The translations under genes and the position numbers were made by a program. From Chryseolinea serpens (GTDB taxonomy: Bacteria; Bacteroidota; Bacteroidia; Cytophagales; Cyclobacteriaceae), in the NCBI RefSeq assembly GCF_900129725.1, contig NZ_FQWQ01000004.1:248001-312000 (forward strand): a stretch of DNA of 64,000 nt, in the 5' to 3' direction. Below are positions 53,191 to 63,533 of this stretch, piece after piece. How positions within the stretch are numbered: position 1 is the first letter of the stretch; each line of letters begins with the position of its first letter. A model generated the notes under the pieces. It was given only the letters and a program-made list of their open reading frames with translations, searched no databases and was not told the DNA's origin.

Positions 53191-56100
53191 ATGAAATTTT
53201 TGCTCCTTATTGTCTTGGGCACTGTCATGTACATGCCCCTGCATTCACAATCCTCAGCTCCGAATATCCTTCCGCCGTCGCCCGATGCGACGGCTTTTGC
53301 TAAATACACGGAGATCCCCATCGGAAGTTACACCGGGATTCCACCCATTGACATTCCGCTATATACGATTTCAAGCGGCCGCATCACCGTGCCCATCGCT
53401 TTATCGTATCATGCCGGTGGCATTAAAGTAGAGGATATCGCCAGTAACATCGGAACCAACTGGACGCTGCAAGGCCTGGGCTCCGTTAGCCGTTCCATAC
53501 ACGGATTGGCTGACGACGTTCCCGTGAAAGGTTTTTTCGATAACTACATTCAGGCAGATATGGTTACCTCCAACGACGACCTGTATGAGATCGCACAAAA
53601 TAACATCGACACACAACCCGATGCCTACTATTTCAATGTGGGTAACTATTCCGGCCAACTCATCTTTGCCAAAGATGGTACCTGCTACACCATACCGCAC
53701 TCCAACTTGCGCATAAAACCCGGCGTTGGGCCGTTGAAGGGAAACAACAGTCAGTGGGAGATCACCACCGAGGACGGTACGGTCTACATACTCGGCAAAG
53801 AAGAGGTCACGAGTGCGGTCAGCTATTGTGCAGTAAACGGAGGCATACCCACCCAACCCCAAACACCGCCCTATATCTCCGCCTGGTACGTAACCGAAAT
53901 ACAAGAGCCTCATTTGGCCAATCATGTCACATTCTCTTACTTCTCTATCCCTGCAGTAAGGTATGATGTGAAAGGGACTGCCAGTCAAACACACTTGGAC
54001 AATCCATCCGTAGAAAAGGGTAGAACTTCCTATTGCAATTCGGAAGTCACCGTGTCTTCATACGCCGTGATCGATCATATTACCTACCGGGGAGGCACCA
54101 TAGAGTTTGGCCGGGAGGGGCGACTTGATTTTGGAGGAATGCGCATTAGTGGGATGATCATCAAAAATTACCATGGCCAAACCCTAAAATCCTTTGTATT
54201 TGATAACGATCACTATTTCGATGCCGTCTGCGACGGTTCGGAATGTATGCGTCTAAAGCTAAATGCCGTAACGGAGATCGGAAGCGACGGTTCGAAAAAA
54301 CCACCCTATAGGTTTACCTACAACACTACAAAACTCCCTTCCCGAAAATCGCTGGACACCGACTATTGGGGATATTTCAACAACAAGGGGAACACCTTGG
54401 GCTATCCGGATTTTCAGGACTACTTCGATGAGGCACCTGAGATCATCGCCCTCCCCGGCGACGACAAAGGCGCCGATCCCGATGCGGCCAAAGCCGGCGT
54501 GCTCACACAGATACAATATCCAACAGGCGGCTCGATGAGTTTCGACTATGAATTGAATGAAGTGGTTTCTTCCCAGCTCCGCAATCAAACCTCCAAACCT
54601 GAAAAATATTCCATAAAAAAATCGGACGATGGCACCGCGGCCACAACCACGGCCACTTTCACCATCAAAGGATATTTCAAAGCCGGTCTCTATGTAAATG
54701 TCAAATACCAAACCACAGGTTGTCAGGATCCAGGCAGTGATATCCCCAGCATACAGGCCAACTGTCCGACGATATTGATCACCAATACAGGCAGGGCCGC
54801 CGACCAGCATCTTTTCCAGGCGACAAACATCACGGAGAGCGCGATGTTCCTGAACAACGGGACCTACAAGATCACGGTGCAAAACGTGAAAGGAATTCAG
54901 ACCTATTTCATGGACGTAACGTTCCGGCCCGAAATAGATTCTCCAAACAAGTACGCCGGCGGCCTGCGCGTAAAGCATATTTCCATCCAGGACGACCTCG
55001 GCGCCGTCATGACCAAAGACTATACATACAACGACACCGACGGAACTTCCACGGGCAGGCTATCAGGCTTCCCGAAGTACTACTACAAAGATATTAACTA
55101 CGTCCTCATGGCAGATCGGGCGGATCGCCCTCCAATGGAAGAGAGGATAAATCAATTTACCCGTACGACTGAATCCAACTCCACCTTGGGCAACTCACGC
55201 GGCAGCTATGTGGGCTATGGAAAAGTGACGGAGACCAACTCCCTTTCGGGAATAAGTGAATACTACTACACATCCGTCTGGAAATCCGAAAAAGAAAACA
55301 CCACAACCTACCTGGATGACAACCTCTACGATCAGCCCTTCGGTCCCCCGAGATATGATAACGAATGGACACGAGGATTTCTATCGAAGCAAATCGACTA
55401 CAGCAGCGGGGTTGTAAATAACAAAACGGTGTCGAGTCCAGTACGTGAGGTGAACAATACCTACACCACTTTGGGGACCGGCGAAGAAGTTCGCGGCGTC
55501 AAGGTGGCCGTTTACGAAAATCACGCTTTGGGTAAGGATAAGAACAAATACAAAGCATTACTCATTCACCGCTATGGAAATTTGTCGTATGTGCTTACCT
55601 CCACCGTGGAAGACTTGAAGAACAGCAACGGTACAGTATCTGTAAAAAAAGAATACCTATTCAGCCCCTCGCATAGACAATTGCAAAAGGAGACCGAAAC
55701 TTTTCTGGAGGATACTTCCACCCCAGCAAACACCTGGCGCCGTATGACTACCTTCCAATATCCCGACGACTACACGACAACTTCCGTTACCAGCGATCCC
55801 GCGAAAGCTTTGAGCAACATGAAGCGCCTGCATATGGTAAACACCGTCATCGAAAAGCAAGTGTGGGAAACGCGCAACAATATCACGACGCTGACGGACG
55901 CTGAAATAGATCTCTTCAATATCAACGGCTATGATCTTCGTCAAACCCTAAAGCTTAGTGCCGCCAAGGCCATCGGCCAAAGCAGTTACAAAACGTCCAC
56001 GATCAATGCAAGCGGTGCGTTCGAATATCAAAAGGCCAACTTCGCGACGGTAATCACGTATGGCACCTACGATGCTGCCAACGGCAATCTCGCCTTCTAT

Positions 56101-56628
56101 ACAATGCGCGACGGCACCCGCAAAGCTTATCAATGGGGGTTGAACAAACTGTATCCGGTAGCAGAGACCACGCAGACCGGCCAGGGACCTGCTTTTTACA
56201 GAGACTTCGAAGAAGACGGCAACAGCCCTGCAGGCGACGCGCACACCGGTTCGAAGAGCAAGACCGGTGGTCTTCAATACAACCTCAAAAAACTCGTAGC
56301 AGGCAGGTATGTATTGTCGTATTGGTTAAAGTCAACCGATCCCTCAAAATCAAATGACCCCTGGGAATATCAGCAGCAATGGATAGACGTAACGGGAACC
56401 ACATACAACATTTCCCTGACGGGTCAAATTGATGACCTTCGTTTTTATCCGGAAAACGCACAAATGACGACCTACACCTATTTCCCGGGCGTTGGACTTC
56501 AATCCGCTACCGATGCCAACGACCTCACTACTTACTATAAATACGATGGCTTCGGCCGGTTGAACACAGTGCGCGACGCCGACCGGAACTTAGTGAAGAA
56601 GCTTCAATACAATTACCGCGCAAAATAG
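53191..56628 (+). CDS. Secreted RHS/YD-repeat-type protein without a toxin tip
   Basis: 1145 aa. Signal peptide (MKFLLLIVLGTVMYMPLHSQ), then an N-terminal domain shared by Bacteroidota RHS-like proteins and similar to SpvB/TcaC (EIPIGSYTGIPPIDIPLYTI, VPIALSYHAGGIKVEDIASN, GTNWTLQGLGSVSRSIHGLA). The middle region is long and beta-rich (YPTGGSMSFDYELNEVVSSQ, LRVKHISIQDDLGAVMTKDY). The C-terminus ends with YD-type units (YTYFPGVGLQSATDANDLTT, YYKYDGFGRLNTVRDADRNL, VKKLQYNYRAK) but no RHS-associated core and no variable tip. It probably forms part of a beta-cocoon shell together with the 1996-aa protein encoded 56 bp downstream. Function is unknown; delivery of the neighbour's tip is an inference. 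Confidence 0.8.
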   Translation: MKFLLLIVLGTVMYMPLHSQSSAPNILPPSPDATAFAKYTEIPIGSYTGIPPIDIPLYTISSGRITVPIALSYHAGGIKVEDIASNIGTNWTLQGLGSVSRSIHGLADDVPVKGFFDNYIQADMVTSNDDLYEIAQNNIDTQPDAYYFNVGNYSGQLIFAKDGTCYTIPHSNLRIKPGVGPLKGNNSQWEITTEDGTVYILGKEEVTSAVSYCAVNGGIPTQPQTPPYISAWYVTEIQEPHLANHVTFSYFSIPAVRYDVKGTASQTHLDNPSVEKGRTSYCNSEVTVSSYAVIDHITYRGGTIEFGREGRLDFGGMRISGMIIKNYHGQTLKSFVFDNDHYFDAVCDGSECMRLKLNAVTEIGSDGSKKPPYRFTYNTTKLPSRKSLDTDYWGYFNNKGNTLGYPDFQDYFDEAPEIIALPGDDKGADPDAAKAGVLTQIQYPTGGSMSFDYELNEVVSSQLRNQTSKPEKYSIKKSDDGTAATTTATFTIKGYFKAGLYVNVKYQTTGCQDPGSDIPSIQANCPTILITNTGRAADQHLFQATNITESAMFLNNGTYKITVQNVKGIQTYFMDVTFRPEIDSPNKYAGGLRVKHISIQDDLGAVMTKDYTYNDTDGTSTGRLSGFPKYYYKDINYVLMADRADRPPMEERINQFTRTTESNSTLGNSRGSYVGYGKVTETNSLSGISEYYYTSVWKSEKENTTTYLDDNLYDQPFGPPRYDNEWTRGFLSKQIDYSSGVVNNKTVSSPVREVNNTYTTLGTGEEVRGVKVAVYENHALGKDKNKYKALLIHRYGNLSYVLTSTVEDLKNSNGTVSVKKEYLFSPSHRQLQKETETFLEDTSTPANTWRRMTTFQYPDDYTTTSVTSDPAKALSNMKRLHMVNTVIEKQVWETRNNITTLTDAEIDLFNINGYDLRQTLKLSAAKAIGQSSYKTSTINASGAFEYQKANFATVITYGTYDAANGNLAFYTMRDGTRKAYQWGLNKLYPVAETTQTGQGPAFYRDFEEDGNSPAGDAHTGSKSKTGGLQYNLKKLVAGRYVLSYWLKSTDPSKSNDPWEYQQQWIDVTGTTYNISLTGQIDDLRFYPENAQMTTYTYFPGVGLQSATDANDLTTYYKYDGFGRLNTVRDADRNLVKKLQYNYRAK

Positions 56629-56684: not shown

Positions 56685-59600
56685 ATGAAAACCAAGATCA
56701 AACTCTTTTTTGTACTTATGATTTTAATATTGAAACATAACGTGCAAGGTCAGGGCTACTACGGTGGTCCGAATCAACAGCCCACGCCGGCGTCTTTGTC
56801 CTATAGCGGAGGCGCTTGTGCGGGAACCGGCGTAGTCATTCTCCTGATGCCAGGATCTGACTGCTACTCGCCGGTAGTACAGACATCGGGATGGAACTTC
56901 AGCCGCACACCAAGTTCGATAACTTATCAGACAACGAACAATGGTAGCAGCTACTCCCGGATAGTGGCCACATGGGACACACCGGGGAATGTAAACATCT
57001 ACGCCAATTACTCCTGCGCCGACGGCAACGGAAGAAGTGGTTCATCCAATCGCATCGATGTGCTCATTGCCGCTGCTGTGGAGCCGTCGGTAACCCTGTC
57101 GACGGATGTTCATAGCGTGTGCCAGGGCGATAGAATTCAATTGAAAGCATCGCCCGTAAACGGCGCTGGTGCTTACAATCAGCAGCCAACATATTTATGG
57201 TATCTGGACGGTGCGTCGGCACCGGTCCACGTAGGCCAAGAAAATCCATACAACGTCGATACCCGCAATATCACAGCGGGCTTACATACGATCGCGGTGA
57301 CCATGAACAGTGCCGCGGCGTGCCTGACCCACAACCCTTCATCGCCTTCGCCCGGCATTACCTTTCAAGTAAATGCTACGGCTTCGCTTACGGCCACGTT
57401 TAACGCTAATCCATCGTATTGTGCCAAGGCAACATCATTCCCGGTGACCATCAATGCCCATGGTGACGGCCCATTGATATATCAGTGGTATCGAAATGGT
57501 ATTCTTATAGCCACCACCTCGCAAGCCCATTATGCTTATGACTACTTAGCCGAAGGTGACCAACTGTATGGCGTAGTTTCTTCAAACGCCGTGTGTCCGC
57601 CGTCGCCCCTCAGCACGAACGTTGTTACCGCCCACCTAGCCAGCGCCACTACACCCGGAGTTTCTATCGAATTGAACAAAATTAACTACTGTGTCGGCGA
57701 GACAATGGAATATAGCGCCTCCGTGACAGGCGCTTCCACCAGCGGAGCGTCCTATCGTTGGACGCTCAATGAAGCGCAGATCTCCACGTCCGCTTCGGGA
57801 ACCATCCCTGTGGGCAAGGCGGATGCAACGGGCCTTTACTTCAATACCGACGATGTATTGGCGGTAGAAGTAAGTGGTATAACAGGAACTTGTCTGAAAG
57901 CCACCACGGCAAACAAGTCAACGGCCGCGATTCCAATAACAATAGATGAGACCCCAACAGTAACCATCGACCCGACGGGCACCGTAAGGATAAAAGATTG
58001 CACTACTTGCTCAAGATACGTCAAGGTTACCGACTTCAATCCCGCCTATTGCTACACTTGGTTGAAAGACGGACAGGCGATAACGGCTCCAAGAATACCA
58101 TATGAATACTATGCGGAAGAAGAAGGCCGTTACGCCGTAACGGCTTCCTCCGGAAATTGCAGTGTCATGTCAGAGTCGTTGACCGTAAAAATCGACAAAG
58201 CGCCCAAAGTCAATGCGGGCCGCGACGTCACCGTAACGCTTCCCATCGAAAGCCTCACGTTGACCGGCACAGTCAGCGACGAAGATGGCGATCCGCTCAC
58301 GGTGAAATGGACAGAAGCCTATGGCAACGTCTTCCCCAACATGGACCGGCCGTCGCTCGTGCTCACCGGCCTGCATAAAGGCACATACATATTCACGCTC
58401 ACAGCCGACGACGGCCTGGAAACCGCCACCGACAATGTGAAGGTCAGTGTCCTTGAACCCATCAACAACTATAACTACATACGCCAAAATATCGTGCAGG
58501 TCAAAGGCGCGGATGAAAAGACTGTAGAAAGTCTCGCCATCGGGCAGCGCCAGGAAACGTATTCCTATTTCGACGGCCTGGGCCGGCTCATGCAGACCGA
58601 CGTCACGCAGGGTTCGCCCAAGGGGCAAGATATCGTGCAAGGCATTGAATACGACGGCCTGGGAAGAGAGGCAACAAAATATTTGCCCTACGTTTCGCAA
58701 GCAGTGAACAATGGCTATTACAAAGGCGGGGCCACCGGCAATCCCCTGCTCAATTTTTATAAAGGCGACAACGACACGAGTCTCGACCCCGACGGGATTG
58801 CCAACGATGACGCGCCTTATGCCGTCGCCCTGTTCGAGACAAGTCCGTTGGGACGCGTGCTCGAACAAGGCGCTCCGGGCAAAACCTGGCAGCCCGACGG
58901 TGGCGATTTTGCAACCTCTTCCAGCAAGGCCATTAAATTTGCCTACGAAACCAACATTGCCACCGAGGTGGTGAAGTGGACCTACACACCAGCAAAAACT
59001 GTCGATGTCCTGGGATTGGTTGCGACAGGCAGCGGCACAGCGCCGGGATACTATGCCGCTGGGCAACTCTATAAGACCAGGACCAAAAACGAAGACCAAT
59101 ACGAGTCCGTCGAATACAAGGATAAAGAGGGCAGGGTTGTGCTAAAGAAGAAGCAAGTTACCGCCACCACCTGGGCCGAGACTTACTATGTCTATGACGA
59201 TGTCAACAATCTAGCCGCCGTCATCACCCCCGAGGGCACAAAGCGAATCCTCCAAACCGCCTCAGAATACTTAGGCAAGGCAACAGCGGTTAAAGAAACC
59301 TTCCTGAAGCAATGGGCTTTCCGCTACGCCCACGATGAACTGCGCCGCCTCATTGTAAAACAGGTGCCCGGTGCTGCCGCAACGCTATACGTGTACGACG
59401 AACGCGACCGCCTAATACTCACCCAGGACGGCAACCTTCGCGCCGCAAAACAATGGTTGTTCACCAAATACGACACCCAGAACCGCCCCGTCGCCACCGG
59501 ACTGTGGGATGACCCCACGGCGCTGTCACAACAACAAGCTTATGGTGCACTAAAGATGTTCTACAAAGACGCTACGCACAGCTTAAGCGAAATGTTGTCG

Positions 59601-62600
59601 ACCGCGTCAGACGACGTTCACGGCTATACACACAAGACTTTTCCGGAAGTAACCGCACCCGACAAATTCCTGACCATAACTTACTACGATCACTACGCCT
59701 TCAATCAGCTGAGCACGTTGGCCTACAACCCGCATCACCTCGACCCCACGCCGACCGACGACGGCCAGGAACCGAAACCCTTCGATCGCCTCCGCGGAAT
59801 GGTGACCGGCACCAAAGTGAAAACCCTTGACGATAACATCTGGCGATACACCGTCCTGTATTACGATCAATACCATCGCCTCATTCAAACCCAGGCTCAA
59901 AACCATAAAGAGGGTGTGGACATGACCACCCACGTATACGACTTTGCAGGCAAAGTCATGCGCACAGCTACCACACAATCCATACCCGGCAAACCCGACG
60001 TAGCGATGGTCCGCGCGTTTACCTACGATCACGCGGGCCGCTTGCTCACCACCAAACACCAAACCGGCACAGCGCCCGCCGTCATTCTGTCGCAGCAAAA
60101 ATACAACGAGTTAGGCCAGCTCATAGAAAAGAAACTCCATAGCGCTGACAATGGCGCGACATTCAAGGAACCCATCTCTTACACCTACAACATTCGTGGC
60201 TGGCTAAAGGGCATAAACAAAAACGAGTACACTTCCAGCGTGCCCGACAACCGTCTGTTCACCGAAGGGTTGTGGTACAACGACGACGGCAACATACAAT
60301 CCCAGATCTGGTGGCGACAAGACAACAAAGAAGAAAGCTATAATTACAGTTACGATACGCTGGGCAGATTCAAAGCCGCCGAATACTACAACCGGGGCCA
60401 TGACAATAAAAACCTTGCCTTCGACGAATATATCGGCAACGTTGGCAATTCGCAAAGCAAAGGCTACGACCTCAATGGCAATATCGTGCGTCTCAACCGC
60501 TTCGGGCAAAACAATGCCAACAGCTATGGCCTTGTGGACAACCTGACTTACCGCTACGCCGGCAACCAAGTCACCCGCATCGACGACGCCGTGGTCGAGA
60601 ACCCAAATGCCATGGGTTTCAAAGAATCAAAAGAAACCGACAACGAGTACACCTACGACGCCAATGGCAACATGAAAACTGACGGTAACAAAGATATCAA
60701 GGAAATCACCTACAACTACCTCAATCTGCCCAACAAGGTGACGAAGTTGAATGGGACGTATTTGGTGTATATCTACGACGCGACCGGCAAGAAGTTGAGA
60801 CAGGATCTGTACACAGCAGCCGGCACGTTGCGGAAGCGCGCGGAATACATGGGAGAATTCTTTTACGAAAACAATGCGCTACAATTTATCCAACATGAAG
60901 AAGGTCGCGTGGTCATGAACAACATCGTTCCCGAGTACCAGTATTTCCTGAAAGACCACCTGGGCAACATCCGCACCACCTTCACCACCCGCGAAGAGAC
61001 CGACAAACTAACGGCCACCCTGGAGACCAGTGCACGCAACACGGAACTGGGTCAGTTCCTCTACCTGAACGAGGCCGTGCTCATCAACGGTGCCCTCTTC
61101 AACCACACACCCAACAGCGCCACCAAGTTCTCTACCCGCCTCAGCGGCTACGACGGCACCAACGGCACCAAGGCCGAACGCGTGGGCCTGGAGCGTTCCA
61201 TCAGCGTCATGCCCGGCGACGTCATTAACATGGAGGTCTATGCCAAATACCGGAGCGCCGACAAGACCAAATGGTCCGCCGTCCTTGTCAACCTCATGAG
61301 CCTGATCGCCTCCGGCAGCACTAACGTCATTGTTGACGGCGGAGCCCCCGGAAGCCATGGCACCACGCCGTTCCCCTGGCCTGACCACCTCGACAACAAG
61401 GGCCCCGACGACGGCACCAACGACCCACCTATGGGCTTCATGAACTGGCTCGTCTTCGACCGCGACTACAACCTCCTTACCCATGGCTCCCAACGCATCA
61501 CCACCGACGGCGCCGAAGACGGCTCCGGCAAAACCTTCTCCAAAATCCAAGCCCAGGTCACCATTTCCGAACCTGGCTATATGCTAGTATATTTAACAAA
61601 TGACAGCGAACCCGGCAAAGAGCGAGACGTGTTCTTTGACGATTTCACAGTGGAACAGGTGAAGTCGGCGGTTATAGACCAAACAGATTATTACGGGTTT
61701 GGTATGGTGGCGCAGTCGCATAGGAGGGAAGGTAGCTTTAAACAAGACTATTTGTTTAATGGTAAGGAAATCCAGGATGAGCTGGATCTTGGTTGGCTCG
61801 ACTACGGGGCGAGGATGTATATGCCGGATATTGGACGGTGGGGCGTGATGGATCCTCTGATGGAAAATTTTATGAGCGTAAGTCCCTATAATTATGCGCT
61901 AAACGGTCCGACGATTTTCAATGACATCGAAGGATTGCTGCCAGGTGATCCTAAATATGCAGGCTCTGGGAACGTTGTAATAATAATTTCAGATGGACCG
62001 GGGTATCCAACTTTTGACACAAGTCCATTGGACGCGACACTATGGGATTATGGGATTTTTAGCAATTTGTCAGATGCACAAGATTGGATTAGAAAAACAT
62101 ATGGACATGATAACATAGGAATTAATAATTTAGTCATTCGTACACACGGTGCTAGTGGTACTCACGAAACACAATCAGCAATACTCGACGGCCCTCAACA
62201 AAATCATACTTATAGTGATTCAGAAGATTTTGACTACGGTTCAGAGCAAGGAGGCGAAGCTGTTGCGGCTATAATCAACATCGCCAGTTATTTAAAGAAA
62301 AATGCTAGCGTTTTACTCACGGCCTGTGGAGCATCGCAGCAAGGGACTCTATTGGCGAATTCCATATTTAAAGCGATTTCCGGAAAAAATAAGAACTTAA
62401 CTATGTATACCAATGGCAGTCTTTCGCAGATAATATGGGCAAGATCCAGGAAAATAAAAGTAGGATCACATTGGAATTCAACTTTGAATCAATGGAAACC
62501 ATGGACCATGACGACGGCTAATGGATCAAGGCCAATAAAACATGTTCCGGGAATTAGTGCCGCGGGAAGATTTATTTTCTTTCCATCGGACGCAGGATCA

Positions 62601-62675
62601 TCCAATGGTAGTTCTTCGTCAGACAGAGGGCGAAAGAAAAGGAAATCTAATAGTAGGGCAAAATCTTCCGACTAA
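56685..62675 (+). CDS. Secreted RHS-repeat protein with DUF6443-like domain and variable C-terminal effector-like tip
   Basis: 1996 aa from the ATG at 56685 (a TTG at 56676 adds three residues). Signal peptide KTKIKLFFVLMILILKHNVQ; residues ~30-580 are Ig-like/PKD repeats with many Cys; ~590-740 a DUF6443-like segment (QETYSYFDGLGRLMQTDVTQ, YDGLGREATKYLPYVS); ~800-1500 YD repeats; ~1500-1690 a carbohydrate-module-like beta region; ~1690-1747 the RHS core (GWLDYGARMYMPDIGRWGVM, PYNYALNGPTIFNDIEG). The tip (~1748-1996) is AT-rich and unlike the rest. It has NNLVIRTHGASGTHET with His1821 and ASVLLTACGASQQGTLLANS with Cys1881, 60 residues apart, each after a hydrophobic strand, as in caspase-like (clan CD) peptidases. 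It ends in a Ser/Lys/Arg-rich tail (DRGRKKRKSNSRAKSSD). A toxic or effector peptidase is inferred, not shown. Confidence 0.85.
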   Translation: MKTKIKLFFVLMILILKHNVQGQGYYGGPNQQPTPASLSYSGGACAGTGVVILLMPGSDCYSPVVQTSGWNFSRTPSSITYQTTNNGSSYSRIVATWDTPGNVNIYANYSCADGNGRSGSSNRIDVLIAAAVEPSVTLSTDVHSVCQGDRIQLKASPVNGAGAYNQQPTYLWYLDGASAPVHVGQENPYNVDTRNITAGLHTIAVTMNSAAACLTHNPSSPSPGITFQVNATASLTATFNANPSYCAKATSFPVTINAHGDGPLIYQWYRNGILIATTSQAHYAYDYLAEGDQLYGVVSSNAVCPPSPLSTNVVTAHLASATTPGVSIELNKINYCVGETMEYSASVTGASTSGASYRWTLNEAQISTSASGTIPVGKADATGLYFNTDDVLAVEVSGITGTCLKATTANKSTAAIPITIDETPTVTIDPTGTVRIKDCTTCSRYVKVTDFNPAYCYTWLKDGQAITAPRIPYEYYAEEEGRYAVTASSGNCSVMSESLTVKIDKAPKVNAGRDVTVTLPIESLTLTGTVSDEDGDPLTVKWTEAYGNVFPNMDRPSLVLTGLHKGTYIFTLTADDGLETATDNVKVSVLEPINNYNYIRQNIVQVKGADEKTVESLAIGQRQETYSYFDGLGRLMQTDVTQGSPKGQDIVQGIEYDGLGREATKYLPYVSQAVNNGYYKGGATGNPLLNFYKGDNDTSLDPDGIANDDAPYAVALFETSPLGRVLEQGAPGKTWQPDGGDFATSSSKAIKFAYETNIATEVVKWTYTPAKTVDVLGLVATGSGTAPGYYAAGQLYKTRTKNEDQYESVEYKDKEGRVVLKKKQVTATTWAETYYVYDDVNNLAAVITPEGTKRILQTASEYLGKATAVKETFLKQWAFRYAHDELRRLIVKQVPGAAATLYVYDERDRLILTQDGNLRAAKQWLFTKYDTQNRPVATGLWDDPTALSQQQAYGALKMFYKDATHSLSEMLSTASDDVHGYTHKTFPEVTAPDKFLTITYYDHYAFNQLSTLAYNPHHLDPTPTDDGQEPKPFDRLRGMVTGTKVKTLDDNIWRYTVLYYDQYHRLIQTQAQNHKEGVDMTTHVYDFAGKVMRTATTQSIPGKPDVAMVRAFTYDHAGRLLTTKHQTGTAPAVILSQQKYNELGQLIEKKLHSADNGATFKEPISYTYNIRGWLKGINKNEYTSSVPDNRLFTEGLWYNDDGNIQSQIWWRQDNKEESYNYSYDTLGRFKAAEYYNRGHDNKNLAFDEYIGNVGNSQSKGYDLNGNIVRLNRFGQNNANSYGLVDNLTYRYAGNQVTRIDDAVVENPNAMGFKESKETDNEYTYDANGNMKTDGNKDIKEITYNYLNLPNKVTKLNGTYLVYIYDATGKKLRQDLYTAAGTLRKRAEYMGEFFYENNALQFIQHEEGRVVMNNIVPEYQYFLKDHLGNIRTTFTTREETDKLTATLETSARNTELGQFLYLNEAVLINGALFNHTPNSATKFSTRLSGYDGTNGTKAERVGLERSISVMPGDVINMEVYAKYRSADKTKWSAVLVNLMSLIASGSTNVIVDGGAPGSHGTTPFPWPDHLDNKGPDDGTNDPPMGFMNWLVFDRDYNLLTHGSQRITTDGAEDGSGKTFSKIQAQVTISEPGYMLVYLTNDSEPGKERDVFFDDFTVEQVKSAVIDQTDYYGFGMVAQSHRREGSFKQDYLFNGKEIQDELDLGWLDYGARMYMPDIGRWGVMDPLMENFMSVSPYNYALNGPTIFNDIEGLLPGDPKYAGSGNVVIIISDGPGYPTFDTSPLDATLWDYGIFSNLSDAQDWIRKTYGHDNIGINNLVIRTHGASGTHETQSAILDGPQQNHTYSDSEDFDYGSEQGGEAVAAIINIASYLKKNASVLLTACGASQQGTLLANSIFKAISGKNKNLTMYTNGSLSQIIWARSRKIKVGSHWNSTLNQWKPWTMTTANGSRPIKHVPGISAAGRFIFFPSDAGSSNGSSSSDRGRKKRKSNSRAKSSD

Positions 62676-62720
62676 ATATTGACTTTAAAATCGTGGTACA
62701 AACTAAATCTTTTTTTTTTT

Positions 62721-63533
62721 ATGAATTGCGGAGCTTTCAAAGCTAATCAAAAACAACTTTTTGCAGTTTTGTTGATGTTGTTTTTTGTTCTATCTCTGAG
62801 TTGTAACAGATCACGGGATTTGAAAAGGGATGTTGTTGATGAGATAAAGGTGTCTGATGTGATTATGTTTGCCAAGTCGCATTTCTCAAGCTACGAGAGG
62901 GCTTCTTCAGTGACCGAAAAATACGACAACTTTGATTTCAATTCTCTGAAACCCTCTAAGCGCACAAATCCAATAGTCAGTTATGTTAAGGTGTTCTATG
63001 ATGAACGACGGGAGCTTGCAAAGGTGTTAAGTATATCAAAATTTAAGGACAGCGACTTTGAATTTAATTTCGTGGAGAATCGAGAGTTTAAATATACCGT
63101 TTTTTTTGCGAGGCAAATCTATGATACCCAGTATGAAAACGAGCAAGGTGACGTTGTAGATGGATTTTTTCTCGTCATTAACAATCGTTGCTTCTTTTTT
63201 GGGTTTCAAGAACCGTTTTGCATAATGGAACTAAACGACGATTTGAAAGCAGTCGAAACTTTAAAATTTAGATTGAATAGATTGGACTATGGGACTAAGG
63301 TTAATTATAATGATCAAATTCATCTTTATTCCGAAACTTTCTACCAGCCTAAGAAGGTTTTTGAGTTTGATAAAGAAACATCAGTATCTGACGTAATAAG
63401 GCAATTTGAGTCAATAGATATTGATTTTATTTTTTATAATGAACGGAAAATTGGTTGGGTTAAAAATCTCGATCACTTACCATTGTGGATTTTTGGCGGG
63501 CTTCACGAATACGACTTCTCTGAGTCTAAATGA
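62721..63533 (+). CDS. Predicted lipoprotein, candidate immunity partner of the RHS tip
   Basis: 270 aa from the ATG at 62721. The frame is open from a TTG at 62679, but the added residues come before a run of ten T and do not look coding. The signal peptide KQLFAVLLMLFFVLSLSCNR has a lipobox with Cys at ~29, so it is a periplasmic or outer-membrane lipoprotein. The remainder has no family I recognise: it is rich in Phe, Tyr, Asp, Glu and Lys (YVKVFYDERRELAKVLSISK, GFFLVINNRCFFFGFQEPFC), probably alpha/beta. It is strongly AT-rich compared with the window. Position (45 bp after the RHS gene, same strand, same base composition as the tip) is typical of an immunity gene; the cell compartment would suit a secreted toxin. 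This role is inference only. Confidence 0.6.
   Translation: MNCGAFKANQKQLFAVLLMLFFVLSLSCNRSRDLKRDVVDEIKVSDVIMFAKSHFSSYERASSVTEKYDNFDFNSLKPSKRTNPIVSYVKVFYDERRELAKVLSISKFKDSDFEFNFVENREFKYTVFFARQIYDTQYENEQGDVVDGFFLVINNRCFFFGFQEPFCIMELNDDLKAVETLKFRLNRLDYGTKVNYNDQIHLYSETFYQPKKVFEFDKETSVSDVIRQFESIDIDFIFYNERKIGWVKNLDHLPLWIFGGLHEYDFSESK

Follow-up and report, generated by a model that had tools for sequence, protein, structure and literature searches.

A divergent RHS tip family with a retained His/Cys pair and a putative exported immunity protein in Chryseolinea serpens

The 3' end of an RHS polymorphic-toxin gene in Chryseolinea serpens is probably an exchangeable cassette that encodes a cysteine-peptidase effector and is followed by a gene for an exported immunity protein, this being the explanation that best accommodates the sequence comparisons reported here. 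The gene lies in a stretch of 64,000 nucleotides (assembly GCF_900129725.1, contig NZ_FQWQ01000004.1, positions 248,001 to 312,000), hereafter the window, where it occupies positions 56685–62675 of the + strand as an open reading frame (ORF) of 1996 amino acids, stop-free in translation and with an N-terminus that looks signal-like by eye. The product carries a K319L-like PKD domain (residues 511–589), a DUF6443 match (residues 608–742) and the RHS-associated core TIGR03696 (residues 1669–1751; 46.3 bits against a cut-off of 32.5). A prediction made beforehand from the DNA letters alone (the original prediction) had placed after the FNDIEG motif of this core a unique tip of some 250 residues, and the tip indeed spans 249 residues (1748–1996; 61926–62672, +). 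The two residues singled out as a candidate dyad, His1821 (CAC, 62145–62147, +) and Cys1881 (TGT, 62325–62327, +), do lie 60 residues apart. The next gene (62721–63533, +), which the original prediction had not mentioned, encodes 270 amino acids with a signal- or lipoprotein-like start, a hydrophobic segment ending in LSLSC that fits the lipobox pattern of PROSITE.

A divergent tip family and its partner gene

Taken as a single query, the window tip retrieved itself and two chance matches from its own genome, and itself alone from 295 genomes of the family. Among 395 genomes of the phylum, 12 were matched at E ≤ 0.05, comprising the tip itself and 11 others, six of which were aligned and judged to be chance while five were left uninspected. 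Peptide patterns of the tip brought up 60 stretches in a genome-contig collection, none of them confirmed; plasmids contained no match to the window tip or to the L016, L198 and L200 tips introduced below, viral contigs contained no confirmed relative, and PDB sequence searches with the tips returned chance-like matches at most. The own genome holds five RHS-core matches, and reading of the paralogous tips revealed similar HGA and C landmarks in one of them (L016), which forms the end of a 2392-residue ORF on contig C10 and matches the window tip in a pairwise BLASTP comparison at E 0.001. The L016 tip matched three of the 295 family genomes, through itself and two loci (L051 and L052) that proved unrelated on reading.

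Profiles reached further. A two-tip profile (A2) matched 34 of the 395 phylum genomes at E ≤ 0.5, the own genome alone strongly, the other matches being uninspected. A profile joining the window tip, L016 and L192 (A4), the last a standalone DUF4347-like protein of 192 amino acids with no RHS on the stretch read, matched 10 of 301 genomes of the order at E ≤ 0.1: the own genome and G479, both represented in the query, G812 and G725, in which the matches were real, three whose matches were rejected on reading and three left uninspected. The tips found in this way in G812 and G725 sit on one RHS protein and one RHS fragment, and a four-tip profile (A5) added three further G725 tips, each after an RHS core, together with a weak and uninspected match in G015 (E 0.0096) when run over seven chosen genomes. 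By reading, six relatives of the window tip occur on RHS proteins or fragments (L016, one in G812 and four in G725), giving a family of seven members in three genomes with 16–24% identity to the window tip. The divergence within this family is large: single-sequence searches missed all relatives, and profiles and the neighbouring gene recovered them.

Membership was assessed by holding out each tip in turn and ranking it within a pool of 298 sequences, composed of the held-out tip, 97 other RHS tips and 200 shuffles. All seven tips ranked first, with E values between 1e-12 and 2e-32; among the non-members listed, a shuffle came closest at E 0.009, and the best other real tip stood at 0.037. 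The 97 controls, freed of duplicates, of fragments and of loci where no tip could be read, combined 24 tips of the genus with 73 of the 79 loci sharing a related RHS core (very short tips dropped), and none of these 73 ranked above a member. One control tip, L119, matched the window tip with phmmer at E 0.0047 (8.9 bits) and was not among the top matches listed later, and short HG..C strings occur in two others (47 residues in L126, 36 in L134).

Relatives of the 62721–63533 product follow five of the six other tips (L198, L200, L220a, L221 and L222), all of them hydrophobic at the start when judged by eye, and a related downstream gene is hence found at six of the seven tips, the window included and L016 excepted. 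When each of the six partners was left out in turn and ranked with 200 shuffles and 97 ORFs located downstream at other RHS loci, all six came first of 298 (E 7e-7 to 3e-57; best non-member 0.006), and a three-row partner profile (A6) recovered the partners of the window, of G812 and of three of the four G725 tips at E ≤ 0.1. Of this family, three members (the window partner and two others) were compared with Pfam and had no match up to E 10; all six were compared with NCBIfam, where none exceeded the cut-off. The co-occurrence of tip and neighbour in most cases is as expected for an effector and its immunity protein, and we judge that the window tip and the 62721–63533 product very probably form such a pair, in which the latter is most likely an exported or lipid-anchored immunity protein, to go by the look of its start. 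The exported look of the partners would in turn point to the envelope as the site of action or of protection.

The His/Cys pair and the link to DUF4347

In an alignment of the seven tips, the position of Cys1881 holds Cys in all seven and that of His1821 holds His in six, the latter position being followed by Gly and preceded by Asn-Leu in all seven, and the position of Trp1940 (62502–62504, +) holds Trp in six. Because this pattern persists at such low identity to the window tip, retention of the pair is, on the alignment, beyond chance, and the relatives conserve a His/Cys dyad as expected of clan CD peptidases. The L016 tip matches DUF4347 (PF14252) at E 0.0012 and is the sole match to that family at E ≤ 0.01 in its genome, and three of the seven tips match PF14252 individually at E ≤ 1, the best at 0.001. 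A hidden Markov model (HMM) of DUF4347 built from 24 sequences (from 30 loci, six of which had no usable segment) gave L016 the top rank in a pool of 99 real RHS tips and 400 shuffles. With L192 and L193, both of which derive from weak PF14252 matches, added to the model, L016 stayed first with 13.1 bits and the window tip took second place with 12.1, while no other real tip scored more than 3.2.

Furthermore, HHalign aligned the seven-tip profile to the 24 DUF4347 sequences with a probability of 84.2%, rising to 88.5% with two more sequences, and set the tip His on the DUF4347 His and the tip Cys on the DUF4347 Cys; the immunity-protein alignment used as a control gave 0.1%, and 100 column shuffles gave at most 0.8%. 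Profile-profile values of 84–88% sit poorly with the view that the His/Cys likeness is coincidental and the tip an unrelated alpha/beta toxin, as does the individual matching of DUF4347 by three tips. That view could draw on low-confidence structural models with generic Rossmann-like matches among the best 50 of Foldseek, and on the fact that the window tip alone is inseparable from noise with the 24-sequence HMM; we consider it distinctly unlikely. The tip is likely of DUF4347 or caspase-like ancestry, a judgment that leans on the profile comparisons, and we take DUF4347 to belong with clan CD. That it is an active peptidase is judged reasonably probable, with Cys1881 as the putative nucleophile and His1821 as the putative base, roles suggested by conservation and by the profile alignment.

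A number of observations weigh against this reading of the tip and its neighbour. Searched by itself, the window tip is without a match in Pfam and the PDB (both up to E 10) and in NCBIfam (up to E 1). No tip reaches the gathering cut-off of DUF4347, the best being L016 at 19.1 against 24.6 bits, and single tips also match unrelated families at chance level (E 0.007–0.07, as for SET7_N at 0.0068). With the 24-sequence HMM, the window tip ranks third at 3.5–3.9 bits, at noise level and under one shuffle, and the L200 tip scores 1.9 bits. The spacing between His and Cys is 51–79 residues in the tips (65 in L221, counted by hand), longer than the roughly 43 estimated by eye for DUF4347. AlphaFold models of the single-sequence window tip and of a shorter construct have low mean confidence (pLDDT) values, 44.5 and 38.6, and the best 50 Foldseek matches, not one of which reaches E ≤ 0.001, comprise generic alpha/beta proteins and no clan CD structure. 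The order of elements in the first of these models (strand, strand, helix, strand with HG, helix, helix, strand with Cys, helix, strand) is one that we take to resemble caspase-like folds. The family itself is also unevenly sampled: four of its seven tips come from the single genome G725, and two (L198 and L200) were picked by a profile that already contained the window tip. The four-tip profile found no match at E ≤ 0.1 in G479, the genome of the DUF4347-like L192; at E ≤ 0.1 the three-row partner profile failed to recover the G725 partner of L221, which rests on the later six-member test; and the gene next to the L016 tip is lipoprotein-like but unrelated (3.6 bits). Lastly, in one G725 tip (L220 850–1836) Asp replaces His and the partner gene is retained; this tip may be an inactive copy.

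The caspase-like peptidase effector originally predicted hence keeps its conserved pair and gains an in-register profile link to DUF4347, the fold itself being left to models of low confidence; conservation of both residues, which the prediction had named as a check, holds throughout for Cys and fails once for His. The tip lacking His would also suit a toxin of DUF4347-like ancestry endowed with some other chemistry or a binding role, as would the designation of DUF4347 as uncharacterized in the part of the literature seen (PMC8262886), but the persistence of Cys in seven and His in six strongly diverged tips, with each residue placed where a predicted strand ends, renders this alternative unlikely.

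Tip exchange and comparison with described systems

A scan with the RHS-associated core (61686–61925, +) returned at least 570 relatives, of which 79 loci, 46–67% identical in the matched core, were kept; among those with species names are Chryseolinea lacunae, Dawidia soli and Chryseosolibacter indicus. Judged by the similarity of the cores, the host is probably a Chryseolinea-like member of the Bacteroidota. A window-type tip, sought by motif and by the two-tip profile, is present in none of the 79, as anticipated by the original prediction for a swappable tip, and the core thus carries variable tips as in RHS polymorphic toxins. The sharp fall in base composition reported at the junction is real in extent, guanine-plus-cytosine (GC) content being 53.1% over 56685–61925, 41.1% over the tip and 35.3% over the gene that follows, against 52.7% for the window. 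It is steep and not a step, however, since 150-base windows already stand at 48–51% from 61500 to 61800. Nor is it distinctive in the genus, where the tip lies 5 points or more below the preceding stretch at 6 of 19 other RHS loci and, at one locus (L049), drops by 12.3 points against 12.0 for the window tip.

RHS repeats form a shell that is exported and from which the tip is released. In the mechanism proposed here, an effector cassette open to exchange would occupy the 3' end of the gene, the exported shell would be built by the RHS repeats, the released tip would act as a caspase-like, DUF4347-related cysteine peptidase, presumably against competing bacteria, and the 62721–63533 product would neutralise it as an immunity protein.

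The pairing of an RHS protein with a caspase-like tip, which had at first seemed unfamiliar, is not new in kind, C-terminal caspase-like RHS toxins being known as such since 2012 (Zhang et al., 2012; PMC3482391). In the portions of that survey available to us, Tox-Caspase is tabulated as a domain predicted to be caspase-like, in which an H and a C are conserved, and is proposed as a toxin when C-terminal; its entry includes Bacteroidetes and lists RHS repeats with Imm36, and Imm57 is tied to Tox-Caspase elsewhere in the table. Like Tox-Caspase, the window tip is C-terminal on an RHS protein and conserves its His/Cys pair. The immunity families named for Tox-Caspase are Imm36 and Imm57; for the window partner and the two relatives compared, Pfam gave no match up to E 10. 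The comparison is one of descriptions, and the present family may have been among the set of Zhang et al. (2012). Imm65, which accompanies Tox-JAB-1, is given in the same portions as the sole lipoprotein immunity protein of the collection, and the window partner looks lipoprotein-like too. According to this source, most caspase-like domains of polymorphic toxins are releasing peptidases, and the tip might likewise trim or release its own RHS protein instead of being a toxin. Releasing versions, however, are there described upstream of a separate C-terminal toxin, whereas just a short Ser-rich tail follows the domain here and the family domain is the end of the protein in the other six tips; co-inheritance of a signal-bearing neighbour in six of seven cases also fits immunity better. 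Autoprocessing in place of toxicity appears distinctly unlikely on these grounds.

The tips resemble DUF4347 in the aligned HG and C motifs and differ from it in falling below the Pfam cut-off, in their longer spacing and, when set beside DUF4347 in long ORFs of other lineages, in forming RHS tips. Support for toxicity of this domain type comes from PA0256 of Pseudomonas aeruginosa, a DUF4347 protein bound by Hcp3, whose expression cut the survival of E. coli 109- and 135-fold (PMC8262886). PA0256 is a small type VI cargo with cytoplasmic toxicity, and the parts of that report available to us name no immunity candidate; it is likened to the window tip as DUF4347-type by description and not by sequence comparison. 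Its site of toxicity is a further point on the opposing side, as it misfits an envelope target. Lipobox-type starts are, moreover, not special to this family, being found in 20 of 98 downstream ORFs of RHS loci, those of the window and L016 included. Both observations keep the envelope as a suggested site.

No description of the tip and partner as a pair was found in the literature consulted on DUF4347, DUF6443 and caspase-like or clan CD toxins, and both families appear undescribed. The fullest form of the proposal, in which an undescribed family of DUF4347-related peptidase effectors on DUF6443-type RHS proteins acts in the envelope of rival Bacteroidota, is countered by exported and sometimes lipid-anchored immunity proteins and moves as a cassette, is offered tentatively and remains rather doubtful as a whole, its envelope component being rated lower because PA0256 is toxic in the cytoplasm. 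The window nevertheless provides a concrete candidate effector–immunity pair for a domain type termed uncharacterized (PMC8262886), and, were the tip an active peptidase and its exported partner a blocking one, it would reveal the site of action of antibacterial caspase-like toxins of this sort.

Neighbouring features and other tips

Upstream of the RHS gene, an RHS-like ORF of 1145 amino acids with a signal-like start (53191–56628, +) is perhaps its partner in a shell made of two parts, as gene order and reading would suggest. At the other end of the protein, the tail (62592–62672, +) is strongly basic and Ser-rich and has no counterpart by eye in the six related tips, for which reason its interpretation as a nuclear signal was dropped.

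G725 holds several RHS tip cassettes, and two tips neighbouring those described above (L220 3488–4957 and L222 4358–5905) show HELxH motifs like those of metallopeptidases and have signal-bearing ORFs downstream. Another RHS tip of the genus (L045) shows by eye a JAB-like IHTHP motif and precedes a lipoprotein-like gene, in the manner of the published Tox-JAB-1/Imm65 pairing. Outside RHS proteins, L193 2266–3459 combines a peptidoglycan-binding-like part with an HG/GC domain weakly matching DUF4347 and adjoins genes resembling type VI secretion sheath and tube proteins; L194, fetched together with L192 and L193, had no DUF4347-like domain on reading. Lastly, a run of 11 T (62710–62720) lies directly 5' of the ATG of the putative immunity gene, the sole A/T run of at least 11 bases in the window, and is a possible slippage switch.

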